Shown here in pieces: positions 9,791 to 46,131 of a DNA stretch of 64,000 nt. The DNA comes from an uncultured Treponema sp. (lineage in GTDB: Bacteria; Spirochaetota; Spirochaetia; Treponematales; Treponemataceae). The DNA lies in NCBI GenBank assembly GCA_946615905.1, contig CAMOIE010000002.1, positions 1 through 64,000 on the forward strand. The letters are read 5' to 3'. The notes under the pieces are model-generated. The model was not told the origin of the DNA and did not search any database. It was given only the letters and a program-made list of their open reading frames with translations. Within the stretch, counting starts at the first letter, position 1. Each line of letters begins with the position of its first letter. The translations under genes and the position numbers were made by a program.

Positions 9791-10279
9791 TTACTCTTCC
9801 AAAACTAAGTCCACACTCTGTGCGTCTGCAGCTTTTATCAAGTCTTCCGGGGCAATTACAATCTGTTCACCCCGCACTCCTGCCGAAATATAGACTTTCT
9901 CGCAGTTCATACATGAAGAATCGATAAAGGTTGGGAATTTTTTCTTCATTCCCAAAGGTGAGCAGCCCCCGCGAATATAGCCTGTCAGTCCCAAAAGTTC
10001 CTCTGGCTTTACCGGAGAAAGCTCTTTTGCCCCGCAGGCGGTTCTCGCTTTTTTCAAATTGATTTCGTGCAGTGCCGACTGGCAAAAAACAAAAATTTTC
10101 TTGTCATTTGACCGCATTACGATTGTCTTAAAACATGCGTCCGGGGAGATCCCTAATTTTTCCGCGATATTTCCGGCGGCTCCCCTCTCCAAGGTGTGCT
10201 CCCCATCGTCATCGTAGGAAAGCGTTTCGTATTTTATTTTAAGTCCGTCAAGAATCCTCATGGCATTTGTCTTTTTCAT
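9791..10279 (-). CDS. ybaK: YbaK/EbsC aminoacyl-tRNA deacylase
   Basis: This small protein (162 residues) belongs to the YbaK/ProX editing family, which hydrolyses misacylated tRNA, typically Cys-tRNA(Pro). Family features are the early YDDDGEHTLERGAAGNIAEKLG stretch (given here in part), the VFKTI-like CFKTIVMRSNDKK segment with the conserved Lys, and GYIRGGCSPLGMKKKFPTFID. It should act in the cytoplasm as a stand-alone trans-editing enzyme. The ATG at 10279 is chosen over an upstream in-frame start because an extended -10 element sits between them. It is probably a single-gene transcript. Confidence 0.88.
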   Translation of the reverse strand: MKKTNAMRILDGLKIKYETLSYDDDGEHTLERGAAGNIAEKLGISPDACFKTIVMRSNDKKIFVFCQSALHEINLKKARTACGAKELSPVKPEELLGLTGYIRGGCSPLGMKKKFPTFIDSSCMNCEKVYISAGVRGEQIVIAPEDLIKAADAQSVDLVLEE

Positions 10280-38164: not shown

Positions 38165-39240
38165 TAATTGGCGATTGCTTTAAGCTGCTCTTCCTTGGCG
38201 TAAACGTTGAGGGCATCGAGCATGTCGTCCATGTTTCCCATCATAAAGCCGGGGAGGTTGTGGAGGGACAAATTGATGCGGTGGTCGGTCACGCGGTCCT
38301 GGGGAAAGTTGTAAGTGCGGATTTTCTCTGAGCGGGCGCCGGTTCCAACCATGGACTTGCGGGCATCAGCTCTTTCCGCCTGCTTTTTGCTTTCCTCAAG
38401 GTCAAAAAGACGGGCGCGCAAAACACGCCAGGCCTTGGCCTTGTTCTTAATCTGGGATTTTTCGTCCTGCTGGATTACGACGATTCCGGTCGGAATGTGG
38501 GTCAGACGGACTGCTGAGTCTGTAGTGTTGACGCACTGGCCGCCAGGTCCACCGGCACGCATAACGTCAACGCGGACATCACCGGGTTTTATGTCGATTT
38601 CAGTTTCTTCCGCTTCCGGCATGACTGCGACAGTCGCTGTTGAAGTCTGCAAGCGTCCCTGGGCTTCTGTCGCGGGAACACGCTGAACGCGGTGAACGCC
38701 GGACTCCCAGCGCAAGGTTCCGTAGACGAATTTTCCTGAAATTGATGTTACGATTTTGTTAAAGCCGCCGACCTCAGTCTCCTGGGCTTCCATAGTCTCT
38801 GTCTTCCAGCCCTTGTTCTCTGCAAGGTGGCAGTACATTTCCCAAAGGTCGCGGACAAAAAGGCTGGCCTCGTCTCCACCAGCCGCCGAACGGATTTCCA
38901 AAATGATGTTTTTTTCGTCCAGAGGATCCGGGGGAATGAGCTTGAGCTTAATCTGCTCTTCCATCTGGGGCTGTTTTTCTTCGAGCTCTTTTAATTCCTC
39001 GCGGGCCATTTCCTTCATTTCAACGTCATCTTCTTCTGTAATCATGACTTTGGCGTCTTCAATTCCCGTGAGAATTTTGCGGTATTCCTTGTCCAATTCC
39101 ATGATTTCGCTCAAATGGCCGTGTTCGCGCATGACTTCCTTGTACTTTGCGGCATCCTTGACCAGATTCGGGTCCATGACCTGTTGGCTGACCTCTTCAA
39201 AGCGTTTTTCAAGTTCGTCGAGTTTTTTTATCAAATCCAT
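38164..39240 (-). CDS. prfA: peptide chain release factor 1
   Basis: RF1 reads UAA and UAG stop codons and triggers release through GGQ (GGPGGQCVNTTDSAVR). The 358-residue protein has the normal length, a Glu/Lys-rich helical N-terminal domain and the RVPATEAQGR segment with the PAT tripeptide anticodon. A promoter abuts the start codon, and its -35 overlaps the hsdS stop codon. prmC follows by overlap. Confidence 0.95.
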   Translation of the reverse strand: MDLIKKLDELEKRFEEVSQQVMDPNLVKDAAKYKEVMREHGHLSEIMELDKEYRKILTGIEDAKVMITEEDDVEMKEMAREELKELEEKQPQMEEQIKLKLIPPDPLDEKNIILEIRSAAGGDEASLFVRDLWEMYCHLAENKGWKTETMEAQETEVGGFNKIVTSISGKFVYGTLRWESGVHRVQRVPATEAQGRLQTSTATVAVMPEAEETEIDIKPGDVRVDVMRAGGPGGQCVNTTDSAVRLTHIPTGIVVIQQDEKSQIKNKAKAWRVLRARLFDLEESKKQAERADARKSMVGTGARSEKIRTYNFPQDRVTDHRINLSLHNLPGFMMGNMDDMLDALNVYAKEEQLKAIAN

Positions 39241-39247
39241 GTGGAAA

Positions 39248-39276
39248 AATATAGTAAATTTTTGTCAAAGATTCAA
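39248..39276 (-). promoter_or_regulatory. prfA promoter, predicted leaderless, overlapping the hsdS end
   Basis: TTGAAT (39271-39276), 17 nt and TATATT (39248-39253) end 7 nt before the prfA ATG. The -35 covers the hsdS stop codon (39273-39275). Confidence 0.65.
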
Positions 39277-41039
39277 TCGATGGTGATGGGCAGGACTTCT
39301 TCCAGTTTTGCCACGATTGCTTCTTGTTCGGCGAGCGGGGGAAGGGGATAGATGAAATTATCAATGTCTGTTGTATTTATAGACGGAGAATTATCTCCTT
39401 TCATAAACTTATGAAGACCATCAATAACATATGGAGACAAAACTGCATAATACAAATATTTTGGATTATACATTCCGATTTGTGTCATTACATAAAAGCC
39501 TGTACTTGCTATTGCAGTTGAATATTTTTCATCTACATAAGCAATATTTTTTAAATATGGACGAACCATTGAAAATAACACATCACCGTTATGAAGTTTT
39601 CGTGACGCACGACTTGGTGCCTGTTTGGATAAAAGAAATTTTGGATTATCAATTATGTTTAATTGATTATTTACTGCATCAGTATCAATATAAACAAAAT
39701 TATCACATTGAGGTTTTATTGATTCCATCGGAGCAAAAATATCTGTTCCTCTCACCCAACACCAGTCTTCGGGAATCTCAAAGGGAATTTCATCTTCTTC
39801 AATTTTGCTTGCGACGATGGGAGCGGGCTTTTTTGCCTTTGGATTGGTCTTTAATGCTTCTTGCCATTGGGCGAGGGCTTTGACGTTGCGTTCTTTGATA
39901 ATGCGGTCTAGGAGCTGTGTACCGGTTTGTCGTTCGCTTCGCTCACTTACCGAGTTTTGATTCTCAAAACTCGCAGCGCGCTCTTGTCTCCATTTTTCTG
40001 TTAATTTTCCTTGAACCGCTTCCTGCAAGATTGCTTTTTTGAGGCTTTGCGGCAGTGCGGACTTTAGTTCTTCTTTGGCGAGCAGGGCGTTTTCATAAGC
40101 GTCCACCAACGGCAGCACCTGCTCAAGTTTTGCCACGATTGCGTTCTGCACGGATAATGGGGGAAGAGGAATTAAAAAATTTCGCATTGTTCCCAAGCCA
40201 ACATTTTTGATAGTTGTTCCTGTTGCATTATCCATTGCATAAGTTAAGAAGAAATCTGTTTGAAAAAGGTAAAAAAAATACTTTTTCATATCCTCTAAAG
40301 CAACATTAAAATAACATGCACTTTTGCCTAGAATGATTTTTTCATTGTTATAGAATGCAATATTTCCAATTGTTCCATTTATTGAAACGAGAATTGTTGA
40401 ACTGTTTAATTCCTTTTTATATTTCTCAAATTCTTTTTTGTTTACTTTTTTTGTATCTGGCTTTATTTCGATAACACCATTATTCAGATTATTTCCATTA
40501 ACAAAAAAGTATTCTCCAGAAACATCATACTGTGGTGTTCCATGAAGTCCATCTCCAAGAATGTTGACCAAATCCCCCAATCTGCACCAACACCAGTTCT
40601 CCGGAATCTCAAAGGGAATTTCATCTTCCTCAATCTGGCTTGCCACAATGGGGGCGGGCTTTTTTGCCTTTGGGTTCTTTTTTAACGCTTCTTGCCATTG
40701 GGCAAGGAGTTTTTTGTTACGATCTTCGATGATTCTGGCTAAAAGTTGTTTTCCAGTTTCAAACGGGGGCGTTGGTCGCGACGTTCCGCCGCTTACCGGG
40801 TTTTCTGGCGAAAACTCGCGGGAATCCAGCTGGGGGATTTTAAGGGGGCTTGCCCCCTTAGGAGAAGGGGTAGCGGAAAAGCCAACAAAGCGGAGAGAAT
40901 CGGCACTGCTTGCAGGACGATTCATGGAGCGACTTGGCTTTGGAGCGAGGGGAAGGCTTTCCCCACCTGTGAGTAATTTTCCTGTGATCGCCGCCTGCAA
41001 GATTGCCTTGCGGAGCGAAGTGTCTTTTTTAATTGGCAT
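39273..41039 (-). CDS. hsdS: type I restriction system specificity subunit HsdS
   Basis: HsdS recognises the bipartite DNA target and recruits HsdM and HsdR. The 588-residue protein has two target recognition domains (about 130-300 and 430-580). Both are preceded by a copy of a repeated spacer (QWQEALK..NPKAKKPAPIVAS.IEEDEIPFEIPE), which joins them as in other two-TRD subunits. Unusually, an additional run of about 65 residues at roughly 22-85, rich in Pro and Ser, and a smaller one before the second spacer are encoded by palindromic repeats. GGGAGAAAT precedes the ATG at 41039. The frame stays open through the insertions, so the gene may work, with TRD function unverified. Confidence 0.9.
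   Translation of the reverse strand: MPIKKDTSLRKAILQAAITGKLLTGGESLPLAPKPSRSMNRPASSADSLRFVGFSATPSPKGASPLKIPQLDSREFSPENPVSGGTSRPTPPFETGKQLLARIIEDRNKKLLAQWQEALKKNPKAKKPAPIVASQIEEDEIPFEIPENWCWCRLGDLVNILGDGLHGTPQYDVSGEYFFVNGNNLNNGVIEIKPDTKKVNKKEFEKYKKELNSSTILVSINGTIGNIAFYNNEKIILGKSACYFNVALEDMKKYFFYLFQTDFFLTYAMDNATGTTIKNVGLGTMRNFLIPLPPLSVQNAIVAKLEQVLPLVDAYENALLAKEELKSALPQSLKKAILQEAVQGKLTEKWRQERAASFENQNSVSERSERQTGTQLLDRIIKERNVKALAQWQEALKTNPKAKKPAPIVASKIEEDEIPFEIPEDWCWVRGTDIFAPMESIKPQCDNFVYIDTDAVNNQLNIIDNPKFLLSKQAPSRASRKLHNGDVLFSMVRPYLKNIAYVDEKYSTAIASTGFYVMTQIGMYNPKYLYYAVLSPYVIDGLHKFMKGDNSPSINTTDIDNFIYPLPPLAEQEAIVAKLEEVLPITID
39760..39918 (-). repeat. hsdS internal direct repeat, copy 2
   Basis: About 158 nt encoding the TRD-spacer region match 40590-40749 closely. 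Two such direct repeats flank the first TRD and could let it be exchanged or lost by recombination. Confidence 0.75.
39951..39973. repeat. palindrome inside hsdS
   Basis: CGAGTTTTGA-TTC-TCAAAACTCG is a perfect 10-bp inverted repeat in frame in hsdS. Like the partner at 40799-40818 it is preceded by CTTACCG. Confidence 0.8.
40590..40749 (-). repeat. hsdS internal direct repeat, copy 1
   Basis: This is the first copy of the spacer-coding direct repeat, matching 39760-39918. Confidence 0.75.
40799..40964. repeat. cluster of palindromes inside hsdS
   Basis: Within the 5' part of hsdS lie an imperfect CGGGTTTT...AAAACTCG pair (about 40798-40818), AAGGGGGCTTGCCCCCTT (40842-40859) and GGGGAAGGCTTTCCCC (40949-40964). 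The last also occurs between ybaK and ilvE at 10409-10424. Together they encode the Pro/Ser-rich insertion. Confidence 0.75.
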
Positions 41040-41053
41040 ATTTCTCCCGAAAC

Positions 41054-41165
41054 ATGTACCCAAAATCGCAGTTTAGGGTACATATTTTGTTTAATATGTA
41101 CCCATTTTTGTATTTTTGGGTACATATTAGTAATTCATGTACCTTTTTTATAGTTTTGGGTACAG
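41054..41165. promoter_or_regulatory. six-site alternating GTAC array between fic and hsdS
   Basis: Six GTAC-centred sites alternate in orientation: ATGTACCC 41054, GGGTACAT 41076, ATGTACCC 41096, GGGTACAT 41118, ATGTACCT 41137 and GGGTACAG 41158. Successive GTAC cores are 22, 20, 22, 19 and 21 bp apart, about two helical turns. The third and fourth form a 12-bp perfect inverted repeat with AATATGTACCCA. The array fills the gap from the fic stop to the hsdS ribosome binding site. It looks like a protein-binding operator, possibly of the Fic-linked winged helix, though this is inference. Confidence 0.65.
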
Positions 41166-41167
41166 AT

Positions 41168-42310
41168 TTAGCTTTGGACTGATTCTATACTTTCATTAGA
41201 ATCAGTTCTTTCTTTCCCCTGATTCATAAAGAGTTCTATAAGCCCGTCATTCATGTAATAATTGCTTTTCCCAATTTTCACTTTTGACAAAAGTCCGGTT
41301 TCAACAATCATGTCTAAGTATTTTGTAGCGGTTTTTCGCAAAACACCCATATCACGTTGCATATATTCAATCTTTGTGTAAGGGTGAAAAAATAGATTGT
41401 TTAGCAATTCGTGCTTATATGTCTTTCCAAAAACAGGTTTTAGTCTATTCTTATATCTTGACATCAATGATGAAATACCGTTTATTAGAACAATTGTTTC
41501 TTTTGAAGTTTCCTCTATTCCCTTTAATATAAAGATCACCCAGTTTTGCCAATCTTTGGAATTTCCGTTGCTATCTCTGATTGCCTGTATTAGTTTATAA
41601 TATTGGCTTTTGTTGTGCGTTATATATCTGCTTAAATATAAAATCGGCAAATCAAGCAAGCCATTTTGAACAAGATACAAAACAGAAATGATTCGTCCTG
41701 TACGTCCGTTTCCGTCATAAAAAGGATGTATGCTTTCAAACTGATGGTGAATCACGGCAAGTTTAATAAGAGGGTCAACATCGGATAATGACGGATTGTT
41801 TATGTACTGTTCAAGATTCGCCATATAGTTTTCAATGTCTTGCGCATTCTGAGGCGGTTCATAAACTACCTCGCCATTTTTATTCTGAAGAGTCGTGCCT
41901 AAAACAGTTCTAAAACCAGCTTTGTTTTTTTCCAATTTCTCCTGAATGGCTTTTATGACATTGTTTGTCAAAAGCTGATTTCTGCGTACCTGCAAAAATC
42001 CTTCTAGCATAGCCTCTCTGTAATTCATAACTTCTTTTGCGGCAGATGAAATTGCATATTCGCTTACAGAAAGGTCTGCCTTAAAAATTTCGTCATGAGT
42101 TGTTACTATATTTTCTACTTCCGAACTGTCTTTTGCCTCTTGAATTACAAGTGAATTGATAAGGACATTTTCATTTGGGATTGTCCGGGCAACACCTTTT
42201 AATTCAGCAAGGCTCTTATTTGAAAGGTTAACCTGCTTTAAGATTTCTTTTGTTTCCAAATCTATGTTGAGTGGTAAATGTGGTATATTGTATTTCTTTT
42301 TCATTTCCAT
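41168..42310 (-). CDS. Fic domain protein with autoinhibitory motif
   Basis: Fic enzymes AMPylate or otherwise modify target proteins. The 380-residue protein has the complete Fic loop HPFYDGNGRTGRI near residues 196-208. The inhibitory SxxxEN motif (SSEVEN, residues about 63-68) is upstream in the N-terminal part, so it looks like a class II protein regulated in cis. The C-terminal 90 residues (LLNNLFFHPYTKIEYMQRDMGVLRKTATKYLDMIVETGLL in part) form a winged helix-turn-helix. It sits between hsdM and hsdS in the same direction (9 nt after hsdM), so it belongs to the restriction operon. GGAGAGGAAG precedes the ATG. Confidence 0.9.
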   Translation of the reverse strand: MEMKKKYNIPHLPLNIDLETKEILKQVNLSNKSLAELKGVARTIPNENVLINSLVIQEAKDSSEVENIVTTHDEIFKADLSVSEYAISSAAKEVMNYREAMLEGFLQVRRNQLLTNNVIKAIQEKLEKNKAGFRTVLGTTLQNKNGEVVYEPPQNAQDIENYMANLEQYINNPSLSDVDPLIKLAVIHHQFESIHPFYDGNGRTGRIISVLYLVQNGLLDLPILYLSRYITHNKSQYYKLIQAIRDSNGNSKDWQNWVIFILKGIEETSKETIVLINGISSLMSRYKNRLKPVFGKTYKHELLNNLFFHPYTKIEYMQRDMGVLRKTATKYLDMIVETGLLSKVKIGKSNYYMNDGLIELFMNQGKERTDSNESIESVQS

Positions 42311-42319
42311 CTTCCTCTC

Positions 42320-43795
42320 CTAAAGTTCAATGCCCAGAGCGGCGGTTATTTTTTCAAGTGAGGCTGCGATTTTTTTGTCGGCGGCTTGCGAGAGCTTTTT
42401 GTAGTTTAGGATTGTGTCGCGGACGCTCAAAATTTCTTGGTCTTCCTTGGGGTATTTGCAAAGGTCAAGGTTGTACCCGTTGGCTGCGATTTCTGACTTT
42501 TTAAAGCAGCGGGATTTTTCGTTCCCTTCTTCTGCAATTTCTATGCGGTTGTTCCACCACATTTTTACAACTTCCATGTGGCTGTCACAAATCGGCTTTG
42601 TCTTTGAAAAATGCTTCAAATCTTCCGGCATATCCATGCGGTAAACCCAAAGGCTGTCGGTGGGCTTTTCGTTGTTGAAAAAGAGAATGTTCGTAGTTAT
42701 GCTCGTGTATGGGGCAAAAACGCTTGAAGGCAGGCGGATAATCGTGTGCAGGTTCATTTCTTCTAGTAGAACTTTTTTTACGGCAACGCTCGCTCCGTCT
42801 GTTCCGAACAAAAATCCGTCGGGAATGATTACGCCCGCGCGTCCGTTCTGTTTAAGTCGCTTTGTGATGTAGGCAATAAAAAGGACTGCCGTTTCGCTCG
42901 TCTTGAACTGGGCAGGAAAGTTCGTGAGTTCTGCGGCGGTCGTCGTTCCTCCGTATGGGGGATTCATTGCGATTACATTTACTTTTTCTTCCTCGTCAAA
43001 GTCGTTTATGTTCTTGTTGAAGGCTGTTCCGTAGGCAATTTGCGGCGTATCGATTCCGTGAACCAAAAGGTTTGTATTGCACAAAAGATAGGGGAAAGGC
43101 TTGTATTCACAGCCGTAAATCGCAGAGTTGATTTTATTCACTTCTTTATTTGTAAGGTTTTTCTGAGCGTGGAAATAATCAATAGCGGCAGTCAAAAATC
43201 CGCCCGTTCCGCAGGCAAAGTCGCCGAACGTTTCTCCGACTTTGGGATTCAGCATTTCGACAATAAATTTTGTAATGGCACGGGGGGTGTAAAATTCTCC
43301 GGCACTGCCTGCCGACTGCAAAAGTTTGAGCATTTCTTCATACATCTGGCCAAAGAGGTTTCTCTGTTTTGCATCGTGGTAGTTTAATTCATTTACAACA
43401 TCGACAAGCTCACGCAGATTTGTTCCATTTTTCATGTACTGGTTCAAGTCTGCAAAGACTTTTCGGATTATTCTCTGGCGTGGCTCAAGGTTTTCTACGT
43501 TTACTGTTTTGCAGTATTTAAAAAGGTTGTCTACAAGGCTAAGAAGTTCATCACCCGTAAGAGTTTTTCCGTCTTTATCTGGAAGTGCCCAGTTGCGCCA
43601 TTTGAATTTTTCTTCTGCAAAGGCAGAGTTGAATTCACGGCCTTCGTCTTCTGCCTCGTCTTCCCATTCTTCTTCAAGTGCGTCAAAGATCCGCAAGAAC
43701 ACAAGGGAAATCAGTTCTTCCAAACGCTGAACGTCGCTGGAGATTCCCTGGTCTTTTCTCATTATATTGCGGGCTGTTTTCCATGAAAATGACAT
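42320..43795 (-). CDS. hsdM: type I restriction system DNA methyltransferase HsdM
   Basis: HsdM methylates adenine at sites chosen by HsdS and protects host DNA. The 491-residue protein has the SAM motif FGDFACGTGGFL (residues about 190-201) and the catalytic NPPYGGTT, with an N-terminal helical domain for HsdS contacts. It lies 20 nt after hsdR and is followed by fic, which separates it from hsdS. All expected motifs are present and the length is normal. Confidence 0.95.
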   Translation of the reverse strand: MSFSWKTARNIMRKDQGISSDVQRLEELISLVFLRIFDALEEEWEDEAEDEGREFNSAFAEEKFKWRNWALPDKDGKTLTGDELLSLVDNLFKYCKTVNVENLEPRQRIIRKVFADLNQYMKNGTNLRELVDVVNELNYHDAKQRNLFGQMYEEMLKLLQSAGSAGEFYTPRAITKFIVEMLNPKVGETFGDFACGTGGFLTAAIDYFHAQKNLTNKEVNKINSAIYGCEYKPFPYLLCNTNLLVHGIDTPQIAYGTAFNKNINDFDEEEKVNVIAMNPPYGGTTTAAELTNFPAQFKTSETAVLFIAYITKRLKQNGRAGVIIPDGFLFGTDGASVAVKKVLLEEMNLHTIIRLPSSVFAPYTSITTNILFFNNEKPTDSLWVYRMDMPEDLKHFSKTKPICDSHMEVVKMWWNNRIEIAEEGNEKSRCFKKSEIAANGYNLDLCKYPKEDQEILSVRDTILNYKKLSQAADKKIAASLEKITAALGIEL

Positions 43796-43815: not shown

Positions 43816-46131
43816 TTATGCGGCGTATAGAATGTCTTCTATGTCGCGGATAATCTGTTTGAATTTGTCCTTGCCGCCGAAGATTTCGTTTTTTATGAAA
43901 ATCGGAGTTCCAAGCTCTGAAAGTTCATTGGCCTTTAACGCATCGTTCTGCTCAAAAGACAAAATTCCTTCGTCCGCATATTTTTGAACAAGGACTTCTA
44001 GAACCCGCTTTGCGTCCCCCTGAAATTTTTCCAAAAAGTTCTTTTCTTTTATGCGTCTTGCCCTTTCGCTTCTGTAAAGCATTGGCTGGTTAAAGGCTAT
44101 GTTCACGATAATATCAAAAATGTCTCGGCTCTGGAATTTTTCCGGATAGTGTTCACGAAGTTGAGACACATCAACTCCAGCTTTTTTCATTTCGTCAACG
44201 ATAATCTGCTTGCGTTCAGCCCTGTTCCACTCTTTTAGGAATTCATCAAGGCTTGCATACAACGAGCAAAGGTGTTTTTTTGAGTATTCGATATAAGAAA
44301 CGGTCAACGGCTTTCCGTCTTTATCCAAGACTAGTTTTGTTTCGCTGTCAATGTAGATTTCGTGTCCTTCGCCATCGATTATGGGCTTGTGTTCTGTATT
44401 CTTCTTTTTTGACTTTCGTTTGGATGGATTTTTGCCGCTTGAACCTTCTGGTGGAAGCGGGTCGCCGTCAAAAGCAGGGTCAAAGAAATGCTCGCTTGCG
44501 TTTCGGAAGTCGAGAATGTCAAAGTAATACTTTTTGTTTTCTACAATGCGGGTGCCCCGTCCGATTATCTGCTTGAATTCAGTCATGCTGTTGATGTTTC
44601 TGTAAAGGACAATCAGTCCGACAGCCTTTGTGTCCACTCCTGTTGAAAGCAACTGGCTTGTCGTTACAACAGTCGGGGTAGGGACGTTTTTTGAGATAAA
44701 GTCGCCCAAATGCTTTTTGCCTTCGCTGTCGCTCGCGGTGATACGCATAATGTATTCATTTTTGTTTTCTGCCTGCCGACCTTCATTAAAATAGATAAGG
44801 GCGGTCCGCATTTGCGCGGCATCAATTTCTTCGTCACAAAAGACGATTGTCTTTGTCATAGGGCCGATGTTTTCAAGAAAATCGGTGATTCTTTTTGCGG
44901 CCACAAGGTAATGTTTTTTGATTCCGAGTTTGAGCGCAAGGTCTTTCTTTTCGATTGTTTCTCCGGCAGTGAGCTTTCCTCCGCTCTGCTCGGCATCCTT
45001 TTCATCAATATCCATTCCACCGTCAATGTTGATATGGACTTTTGTAACTCGGTAGGGGGCTAAGAATCCGTCTTCAATCCCCTGCTTGAGCGAATAGGTG
45101 TAAAGAGGCTTTCCAAAATAAGCAAGGTTGGAGTTGTCGCTGTCAGCGTCATCTTTTGGGGTTGCCGTCATACCAATCTGGACAGCACCGCTAAAGTAAT
45201 CAAGAATCTTTCGCCATTCTGAATTTTTCTTTGCCGAGCCACGGTGGCACTCGTCTATCATGATCAAATCAAAATAGTTGCGGTTGAACTGCTCATAGGG
45301 CTGCGGCGCGCCCGGCGGAAGATTGTATTCCACAAGCTGCTGGTAAAGGCTCATAAAGACTTCAAAACTTTTGCTTGCAGACCGGTTTTCAATTTTTATC
45401 ATCTTGTTGCCGAAGGGCTTAAAATCCTGCTCCATTGTCTGGTCAATCAGAACATTGCGGTCGGCAAGATAGAGGATTCTCATATTGTTTCCACTGGCGG
45501 ACTGCATAAGGCGGTGGAGAATCTGGAAAGCGGTGTATGTCTTTCCTGTTCCTGTCGCCATGACGAACATCATGCGCTTTTTACCCTGGGCATAGGCTTC
45601 AACAACTTTGTCTATTACCGCCCTCTGGTAGTAACGGGGTTCTTTTCCGTCAACATCGTGGTAATAGTCCTTGCTGATGATTTCGATTTGTTCGGGAGTG
45701 TATTTTTTTACCTGAACGAATTTCTGCCAAAGGTCTTCTTGGCTGGGGAAATCTTCCATGCCGAATTCTTCTTCATGACCTTTTTCAAGGGTTGTAAAAA
45801 CAAAAGATTTTCCGTTGCTGGAGGCGGCAAAGGGTGCATTCAAAAGATTTGCGTAATTTATTGCCTGCTGTATGCCTGTCCCTTCAACTTGCCCGGCCCG
45901 TTTTGCTTCAAGAACGCACAAAGGCTGATTGTTCGGCGCAAAGAGAAGATAATCTGCAAAAAGTGCTTTTTCCCGGAATGAATCGCCGTCTTCATCAATT
46001 TGAATACGTCCGGCCGTAATGGGATACTCATAGCGCATATTGACCTTGAGCTTCCAACCCTTAGCTTTGAGTGCGTCCGTGATGAATTCCCTTGTTTCGG
46101 TTTCATTAAAATCTTCGTCAAGCGTGTCCAT
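43816..46131 (-). CDS. hsdR: type I restriction system endonuclease HsdR
   Basis: HsdR is the motor and nuclease of a type I system. The 771-residue protein has the N-terminal nuclease motif (D...VLEAKR, residues about 45-78), Walker A ATGTGKTYTAF, DEAD-type DECHRGSA, TATPKDD and the later helicase motifs GRGTR. It is shorter than E. coli HsdR but matches the DEAD/R1 subfamily. It heads the operon hsdR-hsdM-fic-hsdS. TATAAT with an upstream TG lies 12 nt before the ATG. It is divergent from the truncated MATE gene. Confidence 0.95.
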   Translation of the reverse strand: MDTLDEDFNETETREFITDALKAKGWKLKVNMRYEYPITAGRIQIDEDGDSFREKALFADYLLFAPNNQPLCVLEAKRAGQVEGTGIQQAINYANLLNAPFAASSNGKSFVFTTLEKGHEEEFGMEDFPSQEDLWQKFVQVKKYTPEQIEIISKDYYHDVDGKEPRYYQRAVIDKVVEAYAQGKKRMMFVMATGTGKTYTAFQILHRLMQSASGNNMRILYLADRNVLIDQTMEQDFKPFGNKMIKIENRSASKSFEVFMSLYQQLVEYNLPPGAPQPYEQFNRNYFDLIMIDECHRGSAKKNSEWRKILDYFSGAVQIGMTATPKDDADSDNSNLAYFGKPLYTYSLKQGIEDGFLAPYRVTKVHINIDGGMDIDEKDAEQSGGKLTAGETIEKKDLALKLGIKKHYLVAAKRITDFLENIGPMTKTIVFCDEEIDAAQMRTALIYFNEGRQAENKNEYIMRITASDSEGKKHLGDFISKNVPTPTVVTTSQLLSTGVDTKAVGLIVLYRNINSMTEFKQIIGRGTRIVENKKYYFDILDFRNASEHFFDPAFDGDPLPPEGSSGKNPSKRKSKKKNTEHKPIIDGEGHEIYIDSETKLVLDKDGKPLTVSYIEYSKKHLCSLYASLDEFLKEWNRAERKQIIVDEMKKAGVDVSQLREHYPEKFQSRDIFDIIVNIAFNQPMLYRSERARRIKEKNFLEKFQGDAKRVLEVLVQKYADEGILSFEQNDALKANELSELGTPIFIKNEIFGGKDKFKQIIRDIEDILYAA

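Follow-up and report, generated by a model that had tools for sequence, protein, structure and literature searches.

A phased inverted-repeat array between fic and hsdS in a Treponema-like genome is probably the operator of the SoFic-type Fic protein encoded upstream

Introduction

Controller (C) proteins of type II restriction-modification (R-M) systems are small DNA-binding regulators that are encoded in the R-M operon and act on operators located before the R-M genes. Regulation by a Fic protein has been described in Yersinia pseudotuberculosis, where CccR represses its own promoter; the CccR dimer binds an inverted repeat near the -35 and -10 elements, and mutation of this repeat raises expression (PMC9755527). 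Another DNA-binding Fic protein, CbFic2 of Coxiella burnetii, is dimerized by DNA of 20 bp (PMC10628234). CccR and CbFic2, both relatives of the Fic protein analysed in this study, bind DNA through the same kind of C-terminal domain (PMC9755527, PMC10628234).

The SoFic proteins, including EcSofic, constitute an anti-phage system. Sofic was characterized as a stand-alone toxin that is regulated by dimerization, by its C-terminal domain and by AS1 (PMC12249575). In that 2025 study, the C-terminal domain was treated as a regulator of toxicity and DNA binding was not discussed (PMC12249575), and the authors of the CbFic2 study stated that DNA binding by SoFic had not been shown (PMC10628234). Here, we describe an array of inverted repeats that lies between a SoFic-type fic gene and hsdS, and compare it with sequences flanking fic relatives in many phyla.

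Results

Gene organization of the locus

The sequence analysed (hereafter, the window) is a stretch of 64,000 nucleotides from a genome that is apparently of a Treponema-like lineage, its near relatives in the collection of named genomes being Spirochaetaceae and Candidatus Treponema. The locus is an operon on the minus strand with the gene order hsdR, hsdM, fic, array and hsdS, followed by prfA and prmC, the last two being presumptive names that we assigned from the gene sequences. The hsdR gene (43816..46131) was identified by its reading frame and by domain and defence-family matches. The end of hsdM (42320..43795) is separated from fic (41168..42310) by only 9 bp, and fic appears to be co-transcribed with hsdM. 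The first gene past the array is hsdS (39273..41039), which encodes a type I specificity subunit with Methylase_S and Specificity_I matches; a GGGAG sequence (41044..41048, minus strand) between its start codon and the array is the likely ribosome-binding site.

Two further features of hsdS were observed. Only ∼33 bp (39240-39273) separate its end from prfA, which encodes release factor 1 and is read from the same strand; therefore, control of hsdS may also touch prfA and prmC. In addition, an unusual segment (PLAPKPSRSMNRPASSADSLRFVGF...) at approximately 40745-40990 breaks up the usual N-terminal part of hsdS. A copy of 64 bp of this segment with 80% identity is present at G000:C2:154698-154760 (locus L002), where no hsdS was detected by tblastn, and the segment resembles a repeat element that was inserted in frame.

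The fic gene encodes a protein of 380 amino acids in which the Pfam domains Fic_N, Fic and SoFic-like_C were detected at 86.3, 70.4 and 70.2 bits (cut-offs 26.7, 24 and 27, respectively). It matches the PADLOC SoFic model with an E-value of 5.4e-113, and contains both the catalytic motif HPFx(D/E)GNGRxxR (HPFYDGNGRTGR) and the class II inhibitory helix motif (S/T)xxxE(G/N) (SSEVEN). The nearest solved structures are SoFic-type adenylyltransferases (9vjc, E 4.7e-77); PDB 7xux, which we take to be CccR, is only distantly related (E 1.9e-10). In an AlphaFold2 model (pLDDT 80.6), the C-terminus forms a winged helix composed of a helix at residues 314-321, a recognition helix at residues 325-337 and wing strands at residues 342-346 and 349-353. 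The codons for residue 324 and the recognition helix (LRKTATKYL...) occupy 41300..41341 on the minus strand. By its sequence, the window Fic is thus classified as a SoFic-type class II AMPylase with a C-terminal winged helix; its AMPylation and anti-phage activities are inferred solely from the PADLOC family match.

Geometry and uniqueness of the array

The end of fic at 41168 and the ATG start codon of hsdS at 41039, both on the minus strand, are separated by 128 bp, and the array fills this gap. Inspection of the window sequence confirmed the original prediction of six alternating GTAC sites at this position. The GTAC cores start at 41056, 41078, 41098, 41120, 41139 and 41160 with spacings of 22, 20, 22, 19 and 21 bp, and the orientation of their flanking bases alternates, generating three inverted-repeat dyads of the form TGTACC(C)...(G)GGTACA with lengths of 28, 28 and 27 bp. 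Dyad 1, the first on the minus (transcribed) strand, spans 41138..41164 (27 bp; TGTACCCAAAACTATAAAAAAGGTACA) with cores at 41160-41163 and 41139-41142; dyad 2 spans 41097..41124 (28 bp; minus-strand sequence TGTACCCAAAAATACAAAAATGGGTACA) with cores at 41120-41123 and 41098-41101; and dyad 3, which is closest to hsdS, spans 41055..41082 (28 bp; minus-strand sequence TGTACCCTAAACTGCGATTTTGGGTACA) with cores at 41078-41081 and 41056-41059. The AT-rich gaps separating dyad 1 from dyad 2 (41125..41137, 13 bp) and dyad 2 from dyad 3 (41083..41096, 14 bp) are of the 13-14 bp size that is usual in relatives.

Six GTAC sequences in 112 bp greatly exceed the 0.13 expected from the window rate (Poisson P ∼6e-9), and the alternating-array score of 46 exceeds those of 20 shuffled sequences (mean 12.6, maximum 22). 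Across the whole window, GTAC is not enriched (74 observed versus 71 expected). A search of the 2.96-Mb genome for the three-site pattern yielded the array and two outside matches, a number equal to that in the reversed control, and the strict dyad was found three times in the array, with a single longer-spaced occurrence outside it. The array is therefore the single one in this genome. An origin by chance or from low-complexity sequence was rejected on the basis of the shuffles, the genome search and the comparative enrichment described below.

Arrays beside fic relatives

We compared the flanks of fic relatives in three steps. Relatives from the same genus and order have arrays of the same build but with other letters, located upstream of fic in some genomes and downstream in others. 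A search for the PF21248 family in 393 genomes of the phylum, followed by inspection of the locus flanks, again revealed arrays of the same build with differing letters either upstream or downstream of fic. A contig scan using a single Fic protein as the query gave no match, whereas a scan using alignment A1 identified 80 loci in named genomes from many phyla (the second set). The final comparison combined the phylum, the 80 named genomes, and plasmid and Escherichia coli loci, which represent 113 non-redundant proteins at an 85% cut.

At least one dyad of 27-28 bp with identical half-sites is present beside fic in 65 of the 113 relatives. In the same 113 loci, 90 such dyads lie in 69.5 kb of fic flanks and 10 in the other 1,120 kb, and no dyads of the wrong length (35-36 bp), examined as a control, were found in the fic flanks. 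The enrichment itself is descriptive, because the set of half-sites was chosen after the loci had been viewed; the length control and the contrast between the flanks and the remaining sequence are independent of that choice. Inward dyad lengths in the relatives peak at 27 (60 cases) and 28 bp (23 cases), and outward gaps peak at 14 (52 cases) and 13 bp (28 cases). This recurrence of the same geometry beside fic relatives in many phyla lends strong comparative support to the proposal that the array binds a protein on one face of the DNA, for which no binding data exist. The original prediction was to be discarded if the spacing was not kept in homologous loci or if the motif was scattered over the genome; the spacing is kept, and the motif is not scattered.

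The closest parallel is a Muribaculaceae contig (from another phylum), in which the same six ATGTACCC sites follow fic and the Fic recognition helix reads QRKTAAKYL (LRKTATKYL in the window Fic). Within the phylum, the exact window motif occurs in 6 of the 393 genomes; besides the window genome, these are G292, G021 (which lacks fic), G348, G369 and G425. The matches in G348, G369 and G425 have no array context; no fic is present in the stretches of G348 and G425 that were examined, and the matched sequence of G369 is that of G425. In G292 (L232, G292:C1), a TGTACC array is located directly at the start of fic, the N-terminal part of which has been split off by inserted genes, including a transposase-like gene. 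At three other loci (L017, L018 and L019), inverted AAAGTAAAATAA / TTATTTTACTTT repeats are present upstream of fic genes whose products differ in the C-terminal helix region; the arrangement may thus extend beyond the SoFic-like_C family.

These comparisons also bear on the suggestion, made originally, that the array is a substrate for an invertase that shuffles hsdS or for a GTAC methylase. The array does adjoin hsdS, a gene for which inversion is known from other systems. However, the same geometry recurs beside fic at loci without hsdS, and the half-sites vary from locus to locus. In addition, the window shows no enrichment of GTAC, and the genome contains no second array of this kind. The suggestion thus found no support, and we regard such a role as scarcely credible.

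Half-sites and recognition helices

The half-sites of the relatives include TGTACC, TGGGTA, TGCACA, TGTATA, TGTTAA, TGTCGA and others, and Fic residues 324, 326, 329 and 330 vary with the half-site sequence. Reading the helix as xRxTAxxYL, we defined classes that are associated with particular half-sites: RK preceded by L, Q or K, as well as ERKAAxR, with TGTACC; TRKTA with TGGGTA; RN with TGCACA; RQ with TGTCGA when it follows H, K or R, and with TGTTAA when it follows S, T, N, A or V; R[ILV]TAT with TGTATA; and RF with TGTTGA. In a partial Mantel test that controlled for Fic-domain identity, the half-site profile correlated with helix identity (r = 0.167; null sd 0.013, null maximum 0.049 in 999 permutations), and the reverse test, of the half-site profile against Fic-domain identity given the helix, revealed no correlation (-0.015). 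In pairs with <55% Fic identity, the helix neighbour predicted the half-site better than the average of the others in 52 of 65 cases. When the helix rules were applied, at least two predicted half-sites were present in 66 of 77 loci (permuted mean 17.9, maximum 31); these simple rules were fitted partly by eye on the same 77 loci, and the covariation tests used exact hexamer counts and included related sequences.

Rules that had been fixed before the second set was fetched also held in that set: TGTATA was present in 15 of 17 loci in the class versus 17 of 60 outside it, and TGGGTA in 2 of 2 versus 5 of 75. The TGCACA rule, when relaxed by one residue, was met in 5 of 6 loci in the class and in 0 of 71 outside it; relaxed classes were set after the second-set loci had been viewed. 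Furthermore, TGTCGA was predicted beforehand from the SoFic/EcSofic helix KRQTAS[VT]YL and was subsequently detected in the upstream fic flanks of Cedecea, Pantoea, Salmonella and E. coli. Judged from this covariation, the half-site letters follow a few residues of the recognition helix and not overall relatedness. The proposal that the C-terminal winged helix of Fic reads the array is therefore supported both by the covariation and by the fulfilment of the TGTCGA prediction in the four enterobacterial loci.

An E. coli fic of the type with a TGTCGA array is carried by 361 of 5,426 complete genomes. The possibility that the reading frame of the E. coli Sofic antitoxin AS1 overlaps the array was considered and is unsupported; the array in E. 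coli DA33133 is upstream of fic. A mixed array was observed at L060, where TGTTGA, TGTTCA and TGTATA half-sites are combined approximately 20-210 bp after fic and before hsdR, which suggests loose specificity or an ongoing change of specificity.

The array could instead be read by the R-M complex or by an unlinked regulator, with fic being merely a frequent neighbour. The case for such a reader comes from G021, in which hsdM, the array and hsdS follow one another with no fic between them. However, arrays beside fic also occur with LlaJI-like or McrC-like genes or without any R-M genes, and the half-sites track the Fic recognition helix even after overall Fic relatedness is removed. We therefore regard another reader as very unlikely, with the caveat that G021 leaves room for one. 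The G021 array occupies approximately 9946-9992 of its locus (L231, G021:C24), and no SoFic-type fic was found in the G021 genome. Both hsdR and hsdM of L231 contain one in-frame TAG each, and the own stop codon of hsdM is also TAG; in view of these in-frame TAGs, the locus may be a decaying R-M relic with an orphan array.

Promoters and genes adjoining the arrays

Where an array lies upstream of fic, its last dyad overlies the promoter and the fic start codon. At L006, L007 and L009, the last dyad contains a TATAAT sequence 6 nt upstream of the ATG; therefore, the messages would be leaderless or nearly so. Several enterobacterial and Bacteroidota arrays stop at most two bases from the start codon with no visible Shine-Dalgarno sequence, and a TAnnTTTG box immediately precedes 6 of the 14 TGTAAAGA sites that were checked. 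At six loci, TAnnTTTG boxes occupy the gap before the last dyad. By analogy with CccR (PMC9755527), this layout fits repression by occlusion.

Downstream arrays are often followed by an R-M gene, namely hsdS in the window, hsdR at L060, L143, L152, L159 and L173, hsdM at L053 and L055, and genes for a LlaJI-type enzyme at L004, a McrC-like nuclease at L057 and an N6/N4 DNA methylase at L068. A search for sigma-70-like promoters on the hsdS strand detected none within or close to the window array; control of hsdS may thus act on read-through from hsdRM-fic or on an unrecognized promoter. Two observations were made in the neighbourhood of other arrays. At L173 (Agitococcus lubricus), a TGTTAA array is separated from hsdR by a stretch with ∼15 tandem copies of an 8-bp unit (AAATCAAC), which is possibly a phase-variation tract for the restriction gene. 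At L119 (3660-5000), a gene encoding a Schlafen AlbA_2 protein with Fic-like_C (PF21247) is located between hsdM and hsdS, behind a fic gene with an upstream array.

The promoter positions also bear on whether the repeats act as RNA, folding in the transcript as an attenuator, terminator or processing signal for hsdS. The minus strand of the array does fold far better than shuffled sequences (z = -8.0), and one terminator-like match was found on the other strand. Good folding is, however, expected of any inverted-repeat array; the enterobacterial arrays alternate TGTCGA with TGTTTA, which pair incompletely, and several upstream arrays end in TATAAT 6 nt before the start codon and are thus mostly upstream of transcription. 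Folding also leaves the helix covariation unexplained. Despite the z-score, an RNA element was rejected as the main role on the grounds of the non-pairing enterobacterial sites and the promoter positions, and we consider it highly improbable.

Among the downstream arrays with at least three sites, approximately 10 of 30 have no close gene on the same strand behind them; therefore, promoter control is not the whole story. The main role of the array might be to hold Fic dimers on DNA and not to govern transcription of the next gene, an alternative that we regard as possible but doubtful. DNA-bound dimers would then de-AMPylate and free monomers AMPylate, and loss of occupancy during infection would release the toxic activity, a scheme that we hold no less tentatively. 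Such a role is possible because CbFic2 turns from an AMPylase into a de-AMPylase upon binding DNA of ∼20 bp (PMC10628234), and it would agree with the approximately one-third of downstream arrays that lack a close gene to control and with the nature of SoFic as an abortive-infection toxin whose C-terminal domain is required for toxicity (PMC12249575). However, many arrays are positioned precisely over fic promoters or start codons or just before R-M genes, as transcription control predicts, and the switch has been measured only in CbFic2, for which random DNA and host substrates were used.

Discussion

We propose that the array serves the SoFic-type Fic encoded directly upstream as its cognate operator, with three Fic dimers whose occupancy sets hsdS transcription, and we consider this reading probable. 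Recognition of the array by the window Fic, as deduced from sequence comparison alone, is highly probable, and control of hsdS transcription by the array is somewhat favoured. What is observed is the array itself, the constancy of its geometry, its occurrence beside SoFic-type fic genes, the covariation of half-site and helix, and the fulfilled predictions. We infer, without binding or expression data, that Fic physically binds the array and does so cooperatively and that hsdS is repressed; any influence of DNA binding on AMPylation is likewise an inference.

One Fic dimer would bind each dyad of 27-28 bp through both C-terminal winged helices. Because the dyads repeat every 41-42 bp, that is, every four helical turns, three dimers would be lined up along the same DNA face, and binding of neighbouring dimers would probably be cooperative. 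Since fic lies closely behind hsdRM and the array precedes hsdS, occupancy would set hsdS transcription and would most likely repress it. That Fic on the array sets hsdS expression is inferred because downstream arrays often precede R-M genes; repression of hsdS in this manner is likely but has not been shown. The arrays before fic in relatives would probably exert the same repression on fic itself.

That arrays recur before hsdS, hsdR, hsdM and other restriction genes suggests a role for Fic as the regulator of many R-M operons, and the array would connect R-M gene control with a defence enzyme that modifies proteins. The trigger of SoFic and the purpose of its C-terminal domain are open questions (PMC12249575), and the arrays offer this domain a DNA target that is readable from the genome. 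With the site predicted for SoFic/EcSofic, direct tests become possible for binding, for autorepression and for whether cognate DNA affects AMPylation, and the table of helices and sites can be used as a recognition code for a winged helix. A wider and more speculative idea, which we regard as unlikely at present, is that SoFic-type Fics are widespread sequence-specific regulators whose arrays combine two functions, being operators for R-M or fic genes and also DNA switches by which the AMPylation toxin is held inactive while bound. If this were true, a defence enzyme would use its own array to sense what state the DNA or the R-M system is in.

The relationship of this locus to the known systems can be summarized as follows. 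The SoFic/EcSofic anti-phage proteins (PMC12249575; PDB 3eqx, 3zcn, 9vjc) belong to the same protein family as the window Fic, and a TGTCGA array accompanies the E. coli fic. CbFic2 is similar in being a class II Fic with a C-terminal winged helix that binds DNA, but only random DNA has been used, no cognate site is known and the protein was studied as a modifier of host histones (PMC10628234). The C proteins differ in having an unrelated Xre-type HTH fold and no enzyme domain; the adjacent gene in the window encodes not an Xre-type HTH regulator but a Fic with a winged helix, and the regulator proposed here is itself a defence enzyme and would serve type I as well as other types of R-M systems.

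CccR resembles the window Fic in combining a Fic domain with a C-terminal HTH. As expected of a CccR-type operator, an inverted repeat is present beside fic; its reading by the C-terminal HTH rests on the helix covariation, and binding is inferred. The window array is not in the fic promoter, being located after fic, with a gap of 9 bp between hsdM and fic, but many fic relatives do carry an array before fic. CccR has one wider inverted repeat with 10-bp arms (AGATAATCAT-N26-ATGATAATCT), which face outward in the convention used here, with no array and no R-M gene reported (PMC9755527), and its 10-bp arms and 26-bp spacer are not matched in the window, where the dyads are 27-28 bp and the gaps 13-14 bp. 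Phased multi-dyad arrays, a recognition code and a Fic protein as a regulator of R-M operons were not found in the open-access literature, subscription papers and preprints being outside the scope of the search. Therefore, what was known is the autorepression of a Fic protein through one wide inverted repeat, and what is new is a phased multi-dyad array before an R-M gene together with a family-wide recognition code.
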